From Betaproteobacteria bacterium (GTDB taxonomy: Bacteria > Pseudomonadota > Gammaproteobacteria > Burkholderiales > Rhodocyclaceae), in the NCBI GenBank assembly GCA_009782565.1, contig WRIU01000001.1, forward strand, positions 378,367 through 442,366: a stretch of 64,000 bases of DNA, given 5' to 3'. How positions within the stretch are numbered: position 1 is the stretch's first letter; every line of letters starts with the position of its first letter. Made by a program: the position numbers and the translations under genes. Below are positions 42,503-55,984 of this stretch, one piece after another. The notes beneath the pieces are model-generated. The model was not told the DNA's origin and ran no database searches. It saw nothing but the letters and a program-made list of their open reading frames with translations.

Positions 42503-43255
42503 TCAGTTCTCGGCGGAAACGAACTTGACGATGGCGAGCGCGATGTTGTCGCCGTTGCCTTTGGAGCGCTTACGAGCCAAGTCGAGCAAGCGTTGCGCCG
42601 CTTCGCCAGCAGGTAGGCTGACCAGCGTATCGGCCAGTTCCTCGTCGGAGAAGAAGCTCCACAAACCGTCCGAACAAAGCAGGAAGTGATCCCCGGCTAC
42701 CACGCTGTCACAACCGCCCGCCTCGATCAGCGGCGTACGGTCTCCGCCCAGGCAGGAAACCAGCACATTACGCTGCGGATGGTGGAGCGCCTCTTCTGCG
42801 GTCAGTTTTCCCCGGCGCTGCAATTCCCCGACCAGCGAATGATCCTTCGTACGCAGTATTACCCTGCGATTGCGAAAATGATAGAGACGCGAATCGCCAC
42901 AATGTACCCAACATACCCGCCCCCGGTAGAGCATGAATGCCACGATTGTGCTGTGCGGATCCTGCTCGCTGGTAAATCGGCTCAGCCGAATGGACGAATG
43001 CGCGTTCTGAACCAGCGTGTTCAGTAACTGCCCTGGCTGCTCGGTCGCCGGAGAAAAGGCTTCAAGGTTCTGTTGAGCCGCAAGGACGATCTGTTCGGCG
43101 GCCATCGCGCCGCCGCTATGCCCGCCCATACCATCGGCCAGCGCAATGAGCAACGCGCCGGGATGCGTCGGATGAGTCAATATGGCGACACGATCCTGCT
43201 GTTCCTTGCGGTCGCCGATATGGCGGGCAACACTGGTCTCGACGGAAACGCGCAT
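42503..43255 (-). CDS. PP2C-family protein serine/threonine phosphatase
   Basis: 250 residues from the ATG at 43255. GDRKEQQDRV, LIALADGMGGHSGG, VHCGDSRLYHFRN, LLCSDGLWSFFSDEEL and GNGDNIALAIVKF are the metal-binding motifs of bacterial PP2C (Stp/PppA) phosphatases. It is soluble and cytoplasmic. No Hanks-type kinase lies next to it, so its substrate is unclear. Such phosphatases can regulate type VI secretion, which would fit the Tae4/Tai4 pair only loosely. Confidence 0.92.
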   Translation of the reverse strand: MRVSVETSVARHIGDRKEQQDRVAILTHPTHPGALLIALADGMGGHSGGAMAAEQIVLAAQQNLEAFSPATEQPGQLLNTLVQNAHSSIRLSRFTSEQDPHSTIVAFMLYRGRVCWVHCGDSRLYHFRNRRVILRTKDHSLVGELQRRGKLTAEEALHHPQRNVLVSCLGGDRTPLIEAGGCDSVVAGDHFLLCSDGLWSFFSDEELADTLVSLPAGEAAQRLLDLARKRSKGNGDNIALAIVKFVSAEN

Positions 43256-43358
43256 GAGAAAGAAGGCGATGCAATAATAAGGGTGTCGATGATAACAACC
43301 GAAAACGGCCTGGTATAGCGTGAAATTCTGCAATGTGTTTGAGTTTTGTTTTTGTCAG

Positions 43359-48658: not shown

Positions 48659-49303
48659 TCAATCTGTAATCACGGCCTCAAGCGCATGCCGATCGAGCAG
48701 AAGGATGTATCCGCGTTGCAGTTCGACCCAGCCGGACTGCTCAAAGGCTTTGAGCTGGCGGCTGACAACTTCGCGCGCGCTGCCAAGGTCGGCGGCAATA
48801 TCCTGATGGGTGCGCTCGACAGTATTGGTTGTTGGCGGAGCCAGCCGCAGCAGCAAACGCGCGAGACGGACGTCGATACGTTCGAGCGCAACCTCTTCGA
48901 TGCGCGCCACGAGTTCGGTCAGCCGCGCCGCGTAGGCACTAAAAACAAAGCTGCGGAAGACGGGCGATTCGGCAAGCAGGCGCTGGAAAACCGGAGTCGG
49001 CAGCACTACGCCCTGGATTGGCGTCTCGGCAATGCCCATGGCCGGATAAGCGGTGCTGCCAAGCAGACAGGATGCCGTGACGACGCAACTATCGCCTGGG
49101 TAGATGCGATAGAGAACGATTTCGCGGCCATTTTTCGCCAGCGCCTGCACACGCACGATACCATCGAGCAAAAGCAGAAACTGCCTGCATGGCGAACCGG
49201 GCGCAAAGAGCTGCGTTCCGGCAGGGGCGCTGACAGGCTGCGCGGCGCTGGCCATCGCCTGAGCCAACTCGGCGTCGAAGAGGCTTTTGAGTGTATGGAT
49301 CAT
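48659..49303 (-). CDS. Crp/Fnr-family transcriptional regulator
   Basis: 214 residues. The cyclic-nucleotide-binding fold covers about 20-130 (LFAPGSPCRQFLLLLDGIVRV; GREIVLYRIYPGDSCVVT) and a winged helix with RTHQDIAADLGSAREVVSRQLKAFEQSGWVEL follows. A Cys in FAPGSPC and two in DSCVVTASC may sense redox or sulfide; the N-terminal Fnr [4Fe-4S] cysteine cluster is absent and cAMP contacts are not evident. It probably controls the downstream sqr cluster. Confidence 0.9.
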   Translation of the reverse strand: MIHTLKSLFDAELAQAMASAAQPVSAPAGTQLFAPGSPCRQFLLLLDGIVRVQALAKNGREIVLYRIYPGDSCVVTASCLLGSTAYPAMGIAETPIQGVVLPTPVFQRLLAESPVFRSFVFSAYAARLTELVARIEEVALERIDVRLARLLLRLAPPTTNTVERTHQDIAADLGSAREVVSRQLKAFEQSGWVELQRGYILLLDRHALEAVITD

Positions 49304-49528: not shown

Positions 49529-52500
49529 TCAGGACGGAAGCCTTGAGCTAGACGGGGACTCGACCAGATTGATGAGCCGCGTGAGTTGTTCCTGCTGGTT
49601 CCGCAACCAGGCTGGCAGCCAGACCCGCGTGACGGCGGGCCAGCGCATGCTGTCGCGCAAGAGGGACGGCACACCGTCCCGATCCATCACTGCCCTTCTC
49701 CACTCCGGACCGTCAAGCATGACGGCCAGACGCCAGCCTTTTTCTCCAGCCTTCTTTACGGCGAGATCGACCCGGAAGGCCGAATGGCCTACGTCGGTTT
49801 GCGTAACGTAACCACGCACTTTCAGGGCTTTGGCGATCTCCTGCGCCAGAATGCCGCGCTCTTGCCCCGGAAGGGATGCTTCCGGCACGCCTCCGCCGGA
49901 ACTGGCTGCAAACGCCAGGTAGTCGCTCAAATCCTTCATACCGGCCAACGCCATATGCTCAGGGCCGATGTGTTCCGGGCCGAACGAAGTGAGCAGCCGT
50001 ACCTGTTTGCGGGCGCGCGTGACTGCAACGTTCAACCACCGCCCGCCGCCTTTTCCACTCAGCGGACCGCAGTCCGGAGGCAATGCCTTTGTTGCTGGAT
50101 CGACTGAGAGCACGAACGAAATCAGAATGACATCGCGTTCCTCGCCTTGCGCGTGCTCGAAGCTCTTCACGAAAAGCCTTCGCTCGTCAGAGGCAGCCAG
50201 GGCATCGCGGATTGAAGGTTCTTTCGATTCTTCCAGCATATCCAGAATCAGGTCGCGTTGCGCGGCGTTCAGGCACAGCACGCCAAATGATTCGCCCCGT
50301 CCTGCCGGGTCGCGAAGCCGGGCAGTCAGTTCATCGACTAACGCGCGCGCCTCGATCGGGTTGGTCTCGTCCACGCCGCGCAGGAACTTACCATCGAGCC
50401 GCCGCCAGGTGATGCCCGCATGGGCATCGCGCCGCGCGGACGGCAGGGCGGCAAGTTCACCGCCGTAGTACCGGGCATTCGGAAAAGCGATAAGTTCTTC
50501 GTTCTCGCTCCGGTAATGCCACTTCAGCCGCAACCGAGGCAAACCGGAGTCCAGCGCCGCACTCAGGATACTTTCCTGTTCTCCTTGGGCAAGCGCCGCT
50601 GCCGCAGAGCGCGGGGCAACGTCCATCACGGCGGCAGGAGGCAGTTGTTTCGTGTCGCCGACAATCACGACGGCCTTGGCTCGCCCCATCGCGCCAACCG
50701 CTTCGGCTGTCCGTATCCGGGAGGCTTCGTCGAAAATCACCACATCGAATTTCAGCGTCCCGGCATCGAGGACGCGCGCCGCCGAACCGGGGCTCATCAG
50801 GAAAGCCGGGGCAAAGGTCAATAAGGCTTCAGGATAGCGGGCAGAAATTTCCCTCAGCCCCATGCTGGCGCGTTTGCGCTCGATCTGCCGCACGAGGGCG
50901 GTGACTTCGCCAAGGATGTTGTTCGTGCGGAAAGGCCGCCGTGCGAGCAAGCGGGCGGGAACAGCATGTATGGCGCATTTGCGCGCCTCGCGCATGCTTT
51001 CCAGAAAAGCGGAAACCGCCCTGTCCTGCGCGGCATCATCGAAACTTTCCATGCCGCTGCCCGCCAGACGCTCGCGCAGCGAGGCCATCGCCAGGCCGCG
51101 CCGCATGACTGTTTCAGCTTCGTCCAAGGAAAAAGCCCTGTGCGCCAATTTATTTGCGAAGTCGACGCCCCCTGCCCACTCGATGGATCGAAGCTCCTTA
51201 CGCAATGCGGCATGGCGCTGCAACTGTAAAAGCCCCGTTCCGGCCAGGTCGTTTTCCCATCTGGACATGGATTCGTCCCACGCCTCCAACCAGGCTCGCC
51301 CCGCCAGCCACTGGTCGATACTGCGTTCCGTCGCGCCGATGACAGAGAGCCAGCGCGACCAAGTCGCCTCGATTTCCTTCAGCATCCCAATTTCCCGCGC
51401 GTCCTTGGGTTCCAGCGCCTTCAGCCAAGCTATCGGAGCCATCCGCTCCAGCCAGACGGCGCGCTGGGACAGGTTGATGGCGGCATCGAGTTCTTCCAGC
51501 GCCTGGGGACGGTGCGCGGCCCAGTTGGTCGGCAGGATCAGGCCAACGATGGCGACCGCGTGGGTTTTCAGTTCGGTAACCTGGGTACGGATATTTTGCG
51601 CGTTCTGCAAGACTTCCAGGAGATTCGCGCCTTCCAGGTCGACATCGCGATGGACGAGCGGTTTGATGGCGGCACGGATGGATTTGCGCCGAAATTCGGC
51701 AAACAACCTGGCTTTGGACAAGCTGGTCGCGCGGATCGTCCACTCGTTGAGCATGGAAGAGTCGATGAGCCCCGGCGCAAGCATCGAGAGCGCATCGCGA
51801 TTGGAATCGAGGAAAAACTCCAGCTTTTCCCGCAACGCGGCAACGGCACTCCGCCAAACAGGACGGTCAATGTCGCGGAAATACGCCTTGCTCGGCAAAA
51901 GCCCGTACAGGTTCGCGCCAACACACTCGTTGAGGGTCGCCATCATTTTGCCGGGCCTCAGTTCCTTGAACGCATCCGGCCAGCCGCGCCCCAGTTCCTG
52001 TACCCGCCTGCGCGCCAGCGCCAGAGCTTCGAGGGCGCTGGTCAAGGGCGTGAAAGTCAAGTTGTCTACGTTGTCCAGCCCGAGAAGCAGCCAATGGTCG
52101 CGCTCCGGCTTGCCGATTTTCCGGCTGATTCCGACCGCTCGCCCCAGCGCGTCCGACATGGCCTGGGCGTCGACTTTCCCGATCTGCTTCGGGTCGAGTT
52201 CCCATCCCGGCCCTTCGCCCAGGCGCGCCAATTCATCGTATGCCGACCAAAGAGAAAGCCCTGCGGCGTTGGGCGCGTGCAGGCGTGCGGAGTAATCGCG
52301 TAGCGCCGCAACCGTACCGGCGTATTTATCGAAGGCCGATTTCCAGATTCTTTCGTGGGCATCCGCCGCCGCGCACATGGAGCGTTTCAACTGTTGCCGG
52401 ATGTCATTCATGCTCATCCCGGAACCATACGCTTGCAGCGTGAAGTCCTTCAGCCCGATCCCCTCCAGGCGCTGGCTCACAGCTTCGAGCGCCGCTTTTT

Positions 52501-55027
52501 TCCCGGAGACGAACAATACGCGCTTGCCCATTTCCAGCCCGCGAGCAATCAGGTTGGCGATCGTCTGCGATTTGCCTGTGCCCGGGGCGCCTTCCAGAAC
52601 GAAGGATTTCCCATCCATCGCCGCCGCAATGGCAGCCATTTGAGAACCGTCGGCAACGAGCGGCAAGATCAGATTTTCTTCTTCAAAAGACACTTCATCC
52701 AACGGCTCGAAAGCATCTTCCGGTTCTTCGACGAGATGGCGGATGACGGGGTTTTCCATGAGGATTGGCCAGTTCCTGTCCAGATCCTTCCACATCTGAA
52801 ACGCGGGGCAATCCAGAATCGCCAGACTCGCGTTTTCTTCGACGCTCCAGGGAAGTTGCGCTGCTTGCAGATTGGCGCGGATTTTCTCGAATGCCGCGTT
52901 GAGCATCATCCCCACACCATCGAGGCCGGGATTGTCCAGCCCGTCGAACGTCAGGTTGTGGGTGACGCGCAGCCACTCGATCAGGCAGGGATTGGGTTGT
53001 GCCGTCTCTTCGCCAGCAAGGGAAAGCGTGAAGGCGTTTTCTTCCGGTGCGCCTCTACCACCCGCGCCCACAGTCACGGGAAGCAAAAACAGGGGCGATT
53101 TCACACCCTTGCCCCGGAGACCCGGATGGGTCAGCGTACCAAGCGTTAAGTACAGGTAATGGCTCCCCGCCTCCTGCTCCAGCGTTTCGGACTCGCGCCT
53201 CAACGCGCGCAAACGCTTTGCCGTCCGGACAGGTTCCAACCCCTCGAACGCGGCGGCGGTAATCTTGCCCCGGTACAGGGCTTCGGCAACCTCGCTCAAC
53301 GCACGATCCTTAACGGCCAATTCGAGCGTCTGCCGGGTGCGTGACAAATCAAGCAATGGGTTACGTAAACTGAAATCGAACAGCGACCGTTGCCACCGCC
53401 TGATACGGGACGGGGCGTCATCTTTGTGCACAACGGGAATGTCGTTGGCAAGCTCCACGCTCACCGGTTCTTCAACGATAGATTCCAATATGGGGATTTC
53501 CGCTTCATCCGGGATTTCTACGGAAGTTGCGCTTTCCACGGAATCGGATTCTTTTTCGTCCGCTTTTTTGCCCGTCTTTCTCTGCTTCTGCGGCAATTTT
53601 TCGCTCGGCGCAGGCGCAGATTGGAGACCGCTTTCCTTCACCGTTTCTTCGTCCGGCAAAGGAAGTTCATTTTCGGACAAAGGTCCCGAAAGGATGCCTT
53701 CCCGGCGACATTGCGAAATGACGACGGCAGCTTTCAGTTCGTTGGGAAGGCTACGGACATAGTCAGCAGCCTTTTTTGTGGCTCCGCGAAAACTTAAGGA
53801 ACGCTTGCCTGACCCGATGCCACCGAGTTCCACAGCAATGATGGCTTTCATTTCCACGAGATTGGCGATGATAGAACCATCGTCGATGACCGTTTCTTCC
53901 AGAAAGTTGAAACCTTTGCCACTGCCGAGCGCCAGCGAGTATTCCAACTCGGAAACGGCGATAAAGGCAGGGAGGGCGCGGGACGCCGTAAAAATGACAA
54001 TAGGTTTGAGTCCTGCGGCTTCGCAGCATGCCGCGTAGGTCACGGACAGTTCAATGGAGTCACCGAACCGCTGGCCGACCACCTGCTCGGCGCTTCTCAA
54101 CTTGTGTTCGATCGCTTCAAACGACGCCGGGGAACCGGCGCAGACGATCTGTTCTTCGCGCATCGCCAGGTAAATTGCTTCGGCAATGAGTTTTGCGCGC
54201 GCAAGGCTGGTTTTATATCCGTCCAGTTCGCCTAGCCCGGTTTTTTGAATCAGAAGTTCCGAGGCTGCGCGGAGGATTTTCTCCACCGCCCGGTTTCGGG
54301 GTTGCACGAAAACGGCGATGGACTGCCAGGCTCCGGGGAGTTTGAGGAACTCGCCGGAATCACCTATCTCGACCGTCGTGGCCAACGAGACTTCCCGGCC
54401 GCCTTCTTCGCTTCGCGGGTCGGCTCCCTGCCCCTCTGTCCGGGACGGATGCGCGGTCACGGTCAGCGTGGCAAGCACCGACTCATGGCGTTCGCCGATC
54501 AGCGCATCGAATTCCGGGAAACGCCCGCCATTGAAACAAACCGTGCCGCCGGAAGGCATGCCTTTTTCTTCCCGGCAGGCCAGCCAGTGCCCGTCATCGC
54601 TCTCCACGGTCACTTCGGCTGAGAGTTCGATACCCGACAATTCGCCGCCGGTTTCGTTGTGCACGGTAATCGCCCGGATGAACGGCAGGCGGCTCGCGAG
54701 CAACGAGGCATTGATCCGCCGCTGGAATTCGACTTGTAACCGAATTCCCGATGCTGTGTGATCCAAGACTTCGTATACCGTGGTTCGGTCTTCACCAGGC
54801 ACGCTACCTCCCTGGGCACAGGGCCTATTCCTGAAACTGCTTGATTGTATTCCAGGTGAGAGCACGGCTGCCCCTGATGGAATCCCGGTAACGATTGCCC
54901 CTCCGTGACCTGTGTCACGTAACACTGCTATCTCTGTATCGCTCGCTTCCAGCCCATACTTGCCCAGTTCCGGATTCTGAACGCGCTTTTGGCTGGATAT
55001 GCTCATCGAATTAATAATCTGTGCCAT
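49529..55027 (-). CDS. Giant DUF4011 helicase with C-terminal Vsr/MTES_1575-type nuclease domain
   Basis: 1,832 residues from the ATG at 55027, with AGGA 8 bases upstream. Order: beta-rich N-terminal region (about 1-430), charged Lys/Glu linker (about 440-535), DUF4011 (about 540-760; RWQRSLFDFSLRNPLLDLSR), superfamily 1 helicase with Walker A GAPGTGKSQ (K819), Walker B DEAS (D1433), GDTKQLPP, WHYRSENEELI and VTRARKQVRL, then a nuclease-like domain with FRVDLAV (D1754) and VMLDGPEWRR...RVWLPAW. The usual acidic IExD is replaced by VMLD, which I believe is normal for this lineage. Related multi-domain helicase-nucleases are candidate anti-phage proteins. It starts 12 bp after flgJ, where flgK would be expected. 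Confidence 0.88.
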   Translation of the reverse strand: MAQIINSMSISSQKRVQNPELGKYGLEASDTEIAVLRDTGHGGAIVTGIPSGAAVLSPGIQSSSFRNRPCAQGGSVPGEDRTTVYEVLDHTASGIRLQVEFQRRINASLLASRLPFIRAITVHNETGGELSGIELSAEVTVESDDGHWLACREEKGMPSGGTVCFNGGRFPEFDALIGERHESVLATLTVTAHPSRTEGQGADPRSEEGGREVSLATTVEIGDSGEFLKLPGAWQSIAVFVQPRNRAVEKILRAASELLIQKTGLGELDGYKTSLARAKLIAEAIYLAMREEQIVCAGSPASFEAIEHKLRSAEQVVGQRFGDSIELSVTYAACCEAAGLKPIVIFTASRALPAFIAVSELEYSLALGSGKGFNFLEETVIDDGSIIANLVEMKAIIAVELGGIGSGKRSLSFRGATKKAADYVRSLPNELKAAVVISQCRREGILSGPLSENELPLPDEETVKESGLQSAPAPSEKLPQKQRKTGKKADEKESDSVESATSVEIPDEAEIPILESIVEEPVSVELANDIPVVHKDDAPSRIRRWQRSLFDFSLRNPLLDLSRTRQTLELAVKDRALSEVAEALYRGKITAAAFEGLEPVRTAKRLRALRRESETLEQEAGSHYLYLTLGTLTHPGLRGKGVKSPLFLLPVTVGAGGRGAPEENAFTLSLAGEETAQPNPCLIEWLRVTHNLTFDGLDNPGLDGVGMMLNAAFEKIRANLQAAQLPWSVEENASLAILDCPAFQMWKDLDRNWPILMENPVIRHLVEEPEDAFEPLDEVSFEEENLILPLVADGSQMAAIAAAMDGKSFVLEGAPGTGKSQTIANLIARGLEMGKRVLFVSGKKAALEAVSQRLEGIGLKDFTLQAYGSGMSMNDIRQQLKRSMCAAADAHERIWKSAFDKYAGTVAALRDYSARLHAPNAAGLSLWSAYDELARLGEGPGWELDPKQIGKVDAQAMSDALGRAVGISRKIGKPERDHWLLLGLDNVDNLTFTPLTSALEALALARRRVQELGRGWPDAFKELRPGKMMATLNECVGANLYGLLPSKAYFRDIDRPVWRSAVAALREKLEFFLDSNRDALSMLAPGLIDSSMLNEWTIRATSLSKARLFAEFRRKSIRAAIKPLVHRDVDLEGANLLEVLQNAQNIRTQVTELKTHAVAIVGLILPTNWAAHRPQALEELDAAINLSQRAVWLERMAPIAWLKALEPKDAREIGMLKEIEATWSRWLSVIGATERSIDQWLAGRAWLEAWDESMSRWENDLAGTGLLQLQRHAALRKELRSIEWAGGVDFANKLAHRAFSLDEAETVMRRGLAMASLRERLAGSGMESFDDAAQDRAVSAFLESMREARKCAIHAVPARLLARRPFRTNNILGEVTALVRQIERKRASMGLREISARYPEALLTFAPAFLMSPGSAARVLDAGTLKFDVVIFDEASRIRTAEAVGAMGRAKAVVIVGDTKQLPPAAVMDVAPRSAAAALAQGEQESILSAALDSGLPRLRLKWHYRSENEELIAFPNARYYGGELAALPSARRDAHAGITWRRLDGKFLRGVDETNPIEARALVDELTARLRDPAGRGESFGVLCLNAAQRDLILDMLEESKEPSIRDALAASDERRLFVKSFEHAQGEERDVILISFVLSVDPATKALPPDCGPLSGKGGGRWLNVAVTRARKQVRLLTSFGPEHIGPEHMALAGMKDLSDYLAFAASSGGGVPEASLPGQERGILAQEIAKALKVRGYVTQTDVGHSAFRVDLAVKKAGEKGWRLAVMLDGPEWRRAVMDRDGVPSLLRDSMRWPAVTRVWLPAWLRNQQEQLTRLINLVESPSSSRLPS

Positions 55028-55039
55028 CCCCAATTTCCT

Positions 55040-55984
55040 TTAGCCAAGATGCGCCATGTTCAGCGCGTTCTTCAAAGTATTGCCTCCGATGATGCGAATG
55101 AGCTTGTCGGCATACATTGGGTCGGTGGCATAGCCCGCTTTTTTAAGTCCCTGCGCGAATCCAGCGGCGTCAACCCTGCCGAGGACATCGGCGTAGCGCG
55201 GAGCTTCGGTAAGCAGCTTCGCGTAATCGGCAAACGCTTCGGCCCAGGACGCATAGGAGCGGAACGCGGCTTGCTGGGCCTTCCAGTTTCCGCCTTCAAA
55301 CTCGGATACGGACTTCTGAGCGGTCGTCGAGCCATTCCAGTTTGGCCCCGCCTTGATGTTGAACAGGTTGTAACTGGGCGAGCCGTCGGCGTTCTTCAGT
55401 TGTTTCGTGCCCCACCCGGTTTCCAGCGCGGCCTGTGCCACCATAAAGTGCGCCGGAATGCCGGTAGCGCGGCTGGCGGCATGTGCATGAGGCCAGATGT
55501 CCGCAACAAAATCACGCACATGTTCGGGAACCTGTCCCCCCGCTTTGCGCGCGGCAGCGATGGTTTCGTCGATTTTTGCCGATTGCGCGGCAGATTCGGC
55601 CACTGAGGCTTTCGGGATGTGCCGGAATGAGATATTCGCATTCGCGGCATCCTGCGGGTTCATGCCTTCTTCCTTGTTCCGTCCGCCACCTAATTGACGG
55701 AAAAGCGCGTCGGCCAAACCGACCCCTCTGGATTGCGCCAAATCGCTTGCCAACTGCTGATCGTACAATCCCTGTATGAGTTTCGTCTGCTCGCTGTCGA
55801 AAGGACCATTGGAAAGCGCGGCATTTCGCATGGATTTCAGCATCATTTGCAAAAACAGGGATTCGACCTGCTTGGAAGCCGCGCGCAAAGCCTCATCGGA
55901 ATGACCCTCGGTTTTCGCCAGCCGCTTGAAATCACTCATCGAGCGCGGATCGAGGGTATTGAGGGATGCGTTGTAAGCCATCAT
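55040..55984 (-). CDS. flgJ: Flagellar rod assembly protein/muramidase FlgJ
   Basis: 314 residues. N-terminal rod-binding domain (about 20-110; KQVESLFLQMMLKSMRNAAL), variable linker, C-terminal glucosaminidase (about 150-310; FVADIWPHAHAASRATGIPA, AQAALETGWGTKQL with the catalytic Glu, and YNLFNIKAG). It opens the peptidoglycan for the rod and caps rod growth in the periplasm. It follows flgI by 15 bp. The expected flgK and flgL do not follow it. Confidence 0.95.
   Translation of the reverse strand: MMAYNASLNTLDPRSMSDFKRLAKTEGHSDEALRAASKQVESLFLQMMLKSMRNAALSNGPFDSEQTKLIQGLYDQQLASDLAQSRGVGLADALFRQLGGGRNKEEGMNPQDAANANISFRHIPKASVAESAAQSAKIDETIAAARKAGGQVPEHVRDFVADIWPHAHAASRATGIPAHFMVAQAALETGWGTKQLKNADGSPSYNLFNIKAGPNWNGSTTAQKSVSEFEGGNWKAQQAAFRSYASWAEAFADYAKLLTEAPRYADVLGRVDAAGFAQGLKKAGYATDPMYADKLIRIIGGNTLKNALNMAHLG

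Follow-up and report, generated by a model that had tools for sequence, protein, structure and literature searches.

A ProA-like helicase-nuclease gene beside flgJ in a member of the Rhodocyclaceae is probably a vertically inherited defence gene with its own predicted promoter

Why does a gene for a giant helicase-nuclease lie directly behind flgJ, on the strand of a run of flagellar genes? The question is raised by a 64,000-nucleotide stretch of contig WRIU01000001.1 (positions 378,367 to 442,366) of the Rhodocyclaceae assembly GCA_009782565.1, hereafter the window. An initial annotation had the gene begin 12 bp after flgJ, in the place of flgK and flgL, and suggested that it could be a defence gene hitchhiking in the flagellar operon or one tied to motility. 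We consider it probable instead that this is a ProA-like defence helicase-nuclease gene, vertically inherited and equipped with its own predicted promoter, whose position next to flgJ was created by a genome rearrangement together with the loss of an apt gene in between. Membership in the flagellar operon is improbable. In what follows G000 denotes the genome of the window, G001 and similar handles its relatives in the genus, and P0002 and the like are protein database entries.

Results

The start codon and the junction with flgJ

Profile searches of the window proteins place a flgD-E-F-G-H-I-J run upstream of the helicase gene, with flgJ nearest, and the open reading frame list and profile search show that the minus-strand open frame 49529-55033 (1834 amino acids) is real. 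The following features define the junction.

55040..55984, minus strand: flgJ, the upstream neighbour (TIGR02541, 314.8 bits, cut-off 193)
49529..54802, minus strand: DUF4011 / Upf1-like superfamily 1 (SF1) helicase / MTES_1575 nuclease gene, 1757 amino acids, GTG start (corrected)
54800..54802, minus strand: GTG start codon, an identical column in 9 of 9 aligned loci
54807..54811, minus strand: Shine-Dalgarno GGAGG, with a purine-rich stretch at the equivalent place in relatives
54968..55038, plus (opposite) strand: remnant of apt (5' end plus the sequence upstream of it), which contains the false ATG at 55027 (blastn, junction alignment)

The gene is indeed on the same strand as flgJ and directly downstream of it, but the alignment indicates that its start is the GTG at 54802 and not the ATG at 55027, so that 237 bp rather than 12 separate it from flgJ. 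When the flgJ-helicase junctions of the window and eight relatives are aligned, there is a single point conserved in all nine: a purine-rich stretch followed by GTG (54802 in the window). The database call for the window protein (P0002, 1757 amino acids) agrees with this start, which also fits the entries P0003 (1749), P0006 (1757), P0009 (1747) and P0021 (1738 amino acids). As a start, the ATG at 55027 was rejected. The frame ahead of the GTG contains stops in G017 and G016, and between G000 and G015 its 69 codons give a ratio of non-synonymous to synonymous substitution rates (dN/dS) of 0.11/0.23 = 0.48, compared with 0.145 for the gene. The stretch around this ATG has another origin. By blastn, the complementary strand of window positions 54968-55038 is 70% identical over 71 nt to the apt region of G016 (E 3e-5); apt encodes adenine phosphoribosyltransferase. 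Corresponding matches are present in G015, G012, G019, G011 and G010 (E 7e-7 to 1e-30), while the relic comparison found no apt coding relic in G008. The ATG with its "good ribosome site" lies in an antisense relic of the apt 5' end, and the conserved ribosome site is the one at the GTG.

Elements of a predicted promoter

The comparison covered 21 genomes of the genus, that of the window included, and 15 from other genera in the family. A genome was scored as a carrier if it encodes a relative with at least about 44% identity, and some copies are cut or split by contig ends. By this measure 17 of the 21 genus genomes are carriers, the exceptions being G002, G004, G006 and G007. Two elements precede the gene.

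54844..54849, minus strand: -10-like box TACAAT, a box being present in 17 of 17 carriers
54904..54919, no strand assigned: CRP/FNR-type palindrome CGTGACACAGGTCACG, centred 62 nt from the -10-like box (sequence match)

The box reads TACAAT in 14 carriers, TACAAC in two (G008 and G014) and TATAAT in one (G017). The palindrome, GTGA-N6-TCAC, which by its consensus is presumed to be of CRP/FNR type, lies upstream of the helicase gene in 12 of the 17 carriers, with perfect half-sites in 11 and one mismatch in G001. Its centre is 62 nt from the box in six genomes, 41 in three, 59 in one and 57 in two; from 41 to 62 is a step of 21 nt, roughly two turns of the helix. All seven carriers that lack apt have perfect half-sites, which argues that the palindrome serves the helicase gene. 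The gene thus has its own predicted promoter. Of the promoter and terminator that were to be sought in this interval, promoter-like elements are present, and a terminator scan found no terminator on the helicase strand after flgJ and before the helicase gene. Because of the latter result, read-through from flgJ is possible.

The gene neighbourhood across the genus

A full-length divergent apt adjoins the helicase gene in 10 of the 17 carriers. In the other seven no apt match was found anywhere in the genome, two of these genomes being only 66-70% complete. The gene prc, which encodes a tail-specific protease, is a neighbour in six carriers (G003, with about 1 kb between, G014, G016, G017, G018 and G019). 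Two of the non-carriers, G004 and G007, have an empty site, where prc is followed by apt at a distance of about 100 bp. By comparison, flgJ lies beside the helicase gene on one contig in eight of the 17 carriers (G000, G015, G012, G019, G011, G008, G010 and G017), and these either form one inner clade or, in the case of G010 and G011, which are outside the helicase tree, are close to it by identity.

These data bear on the proposal that a defence gene forms the distal part of the flagellar operon, with its expression tied to motility. In its favour are the adjacency in eight carriers, the shared strand and the interval of 237 bp, in which no terminator was found. Against it are the outer branches (G013, G003, G001 and the G018 group), where the helicase contigs have no flgJ beside the gene, and G017, in which a full-length opposite-strand apt still separates the two genes. 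Further, the helicase gene has its own conserved start, its -10-like box and, in most carriers, the palindrome, and the apt relic accounts for the ATG that had made the junction look so tight. Nothing was found that supports a link to motility, and we regard the proposal as very unlikely. A flgJ-downstream neighbourhood conserved across relatives, which it had invited us to look for, is likewise not what the genomes display.

The location of flgK leads to the same view. It was found in the window genome on another contig (G000:C2:171381). Among 20 genomes with a flgJ match, flgK is on the contig of flgJ only in G003, where it follows flgJ directly, and flgJ without flgK for more than 1 kb downstream is also seen in G007, G013, G001 and G009. 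As the helicase is not beside flgJ in these four, the split between flgJ and flgK was not caused by it. Several other flgJ copies are near contig ends (e.g. G014 and G004) and cannot be judged for flgK. A reciprocal exchange that brought the old neighbours of apt to flgK was considered and set aside, as the stretches compared had no shared neighbour.

Descent and selection

Trees of the helicase and of FlgJ were compared for 14 carriers, those in which the available pieces of the two were sufficiently long. The groups G003/G001, G009/(G018,(G014,G005)) and G000/G015 are common to the two trees, and the remaining inner genomes cluster together in each; G013 falls inside the inner group in the helicase tree and at the midpoint root, on a long branch, in the FlgJ tree. 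The pairwise distances correlate with r 0.87, a value reached in none of 5000 permutations. When outgroups are added, the Prc tree has G006 at the base of the genus. A further tree from concatenated Prc, FlgI and FlgJ, which covers 19 genomes (G010 and G020 left out) and is rooted on G006, places G002 among the 15 carriers that it includes and G004 and G007 outside these, the latter with modest support (90.7/85). Taken together, descent of the helicase gene looks vertical.

The dN/dS of the helicase gene is 0.145-0.245 in eight of nine pairs, and that of flgJ 0.118-0.276 in eight of nine, with 0.389 in G003/G001. As judged by these ratios, selection on the helicase gene is purifying, much like that on flgJ. 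Such values largely refute the notion that we are looking at a decaying gene in the course of being lost. The absence of the gene from G002 and the loss of a presumed active-site pair in most copies (see below) could be read in that sense, whereas the frame is full length and the helicase motifs and both acidic residues of the nuclease domain are conserved; decay is accordingly the least credible of the explanations considered here.

Protein domains and predicted structure

The domains that the initial annotation had recognized were confirmed by Pfam, with PF13195, PF13086, PF13087 and PF18741 all above their cut-offs in the window protein.

54356..54763, minus strand: N-terminal beta-sandwich, residues 14-149 of 1757 (predicted)
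53720..54340, minus strand: transglutaminase-like domain, residues 155-361 (predicted); the presumed Cys/His pair is Ser and Arg here
52970..53383, minus strand: DUF4011 domain (PF13195, E 1.9e-14)
49991..52648, minus strand: SF1 helicase motors (AAA_19 / AAA_11 / AAA_12) with a long helical insertion
49568..49843, minus strand: MTES_1575 (Vsr-like) nuclease domain (PF18741, E 3.7e-11, 43.4 bits, cut-off 38.2)

Walker A, Walker B (DE), GDxxQ, HYRS and NVAxTRAR motifs are all in the window protein, and some of the 27 other aligned rows have a few single-letter changes in them. Two acidic residues of the nuclease domain are invariant in all 28 aligned proteins; by eye there is no clear catalytic lysine, and the domain is described as a predicted nuclease. 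The presumed Cys/His pair of the transglutaminase-like domain is mostly lost in the aligned proteins, though P0022, P0029 and P0032 retain it. A structural model contains an Upf1-type motor fold (predicted local distance difference test score 82.5), and its fold matches include Upf1, Senataxin and Dna2. A Foldseek search with the N-terminal half gave weak matches only (best E 5e-4). The protein is thus predicted to be an Upf1-like SF1 helicase joined to an MTES_1575 nuclease domain.

Comparison with known systems

The resemblance to single-protein anti-phage systems that had been noticed at the outset is borne out by a scan with defence profiles, in which ProA, PDC-S37 and Hhe were the best models, though the scores for ProA and Hhe are below their cut-offs. 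ProA (NCBIfam NF058533) is the nearest anti-phage model and has in common with the window protein the DUF4011, SF1 helicase and MTES_1575 architecture. The window protein scores 1094 bits, against an equivalog cut-off of 1500, in two stretches, the best of which covers profile positions 454-1704 of 1903. The genus relatives P0025 (1172.8 bits) and P0029 (1028.5 bits) are also under the cut-off and match the profile from position 1, while P0032, of about 39% identity, passes it with 1574 bits. The window protein differs from ProA in that a Pfam search found no DUF3320 match, in that the presumed transglutaminase-like Cys/His pair is lost, and in that its gene is apparently inherited vertically, between core genes. 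The PADLOC model PDC-S37, itself only a candidate defence family, gives 629 bits, with a best stretch from residues 601-1826 of the 1834-amino-acid frame against profile positions 99-1340 of 1550. Hhe (NCBIfam NF042953; PADLOC Hhe) is by name a DUF4011 anti-phage protein; the score is 428.9 bits with a cut-off of 2000, and the best stretch is confined to the C-terminal quarter (residues 1375-1824). PMC10925250 classes Hhe as SF1 Upf1, and the window protein, by its predicted fold, is alike in this respect. The eukaryotic Upf1/Ighmbp2 model (TIGR00376) gives 77.7 bits, with a cut-off of 348.9. The eukaryotic Upf1/Ighmbp2 helicases are not known to contain DUF4011 or the MTES_1575 nuclease. Among the titles and abstract openings that searches of an open-access library listed, none describes ProA as an anti-phage helicase; PDC-S37 had no paper there, and DUF4011 is mentioned in three.

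It may be asked whether the protein is instead a housekeeping Upf1/Dna2-like enzyme, domesticated from a defence gene and acting in genome maintenance or R-loop removal. Its apparent vertical descent, the flgJ-like purifying selection, its place between core genes, the lack of a defence neighbourhood and the fold matches to Upf1, Senataxin and Dna2 all accord with such an enzyme. So does the large DUF4011 gene that, according to PMC10250203, is core in every Pseudomonas aeruginosa isolate studied. That gene flanks a defence hotspot, so that core status does not decide between a defence and a domesticated gene. On the other hand, the closest curated models are anti-phage, and the gene is not essential, since it is absent from four of the 21 genus members and from all 15 genomes of other genera, 11 of which gave no match and four only weak matches to the helicase core. 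Distant relatives are carried on 329 of 72,556 plasmid records (234 from Klebsiella, 204 predicted to be conjugative), all below 60% identity. There was also a match in one of 50,697 phage records, and there were 21 distant loci in viral contigs. A housekeeping role is in our estimation unlikely, and an anti-phage function, by analogy with these models, likely.

A proposed history and mechanism

In the explanation that we favour, the gene would have been captured once, within the genus, into the gap between prc and apt, and lost from G002. The apt-helicase-prc block would then have been juxtaposed to flgJ after the branching of G013 and before that of G017, and apt would have decayed in the seven sampled carriers that lack it. 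The N-terminal sandwich, transglutaminase-like and DUF4011 part may sense a phage component or an abnormal nucleic-acid end and control the Upf1-like motors; these would translocate on nucleic acid and feed it to the C-terminal nuclease domain for cutting. The palindrome could couple expression to a CRP/FNR-family regulator. Only the anatomy is seen directly; sensing, cutting and protection from phage are suggested by the matches to the ProA and Hhe models.

Beside the sub-threshold ProA and Hhe scores, a number of observations weigh against this explanation. The relatives P0004 (1846), P0005 (1824) and P0013 (1827 amino acids) have been called longer, from upstream starts. No promoter was called at the -10 region when 54600-55400 was scanned with a generic sigma-70 model, and the missing terminator noted above belongs here too. 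The palindrome is absent from five of the 17 carriers (G018, G014, G005, G009 and G020), and genome-wide there are eight sites against six for a reversed control, which is no clear enrichment; a CRP regulon was rejected on this count. Within the window the palindrome occurs once, and shuffled sequences contain 0.25 on average and at least one in 23 of 100 cases, so a single match is not rare and the evidence is its retention across relatives. As for descent, the correlation of helicase with FlgI distances is only r 0.57 (12 genomes), dN/dS rises to 0.367 in G003/G001, and G002 is nested among carriers yet has no helicase gene (genome 87% complete). The Prc tree does not settle the placement of G004 and G007, and loss in these two instead of a later gain is possible. 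For defence genes, stable inheritance throughout a genus is less usual. Finally, there is no defence neighbourhood: nine of ten nearby window genes match no PADLOC model and one has a weak candidate match.

A reading that combines several of these features is that a defence gene, captured once between prc and apt, has been turned into a core enzyme of nucleic-acid surveillance under a CRP/FNR switch. Having lost the transglutaminase-like active site and acquired a conserved operator, it would now be kept like a housekeeping gene. We hold this to be doubtful, though deserving of some weight.

If the history that we favour is correct, it removes what is likely a false "flagellar defence operon" and illustrates how gene order can mislead: once a single gene on the reverse strand was gone, a promoter region unrelated to the operon resembled an operon junction, complete with a ribosome site. 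It would also provide a ProA-like helicase-nuclease kept by descent in a genus, for which there are an empty site and a candidate operator and in which the transglutaminase-like domain is degenerate; what this domain does, and how proteins of this kind are regulated, would thereby be open to testing.

Other observations

The weak PADLOC match among the nearby genes is a PP2C-type phosphatase (window 42503-43333), which resembles the candidate PDC-M21C with 41 bits. Downstream of the helicase gene is a gene for a Crp/Fnr-family regulator (window 48659-49303) with a recognition-helix-like REVVSR stretch. A pairing of the two genes was rejected, the relatives examined having prc or other genes in that place. 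No apt match was found in nine of the 21 genus genomes, some of them incomplete (G000, G011, G015, G019, G002, G012, G008, G006 and G010); with apt relics beside flgJ in six genomes, adenine salvage has apparently been lost repeatedly. Distant DUF4011-type helicase frames are present at G011:C23, G008:C111, G008:C153, G006:C133, G002:C279 and G020:C81. They occur in single genus members, as frames of 897-2145 amino acids with 32-41% identity in the matched pieces, and their distribution is patchy, unlike that of the prc-apt copy. The flgJ of G013 (G013:C152:2816-3787) is broken by one in-frame TAG.
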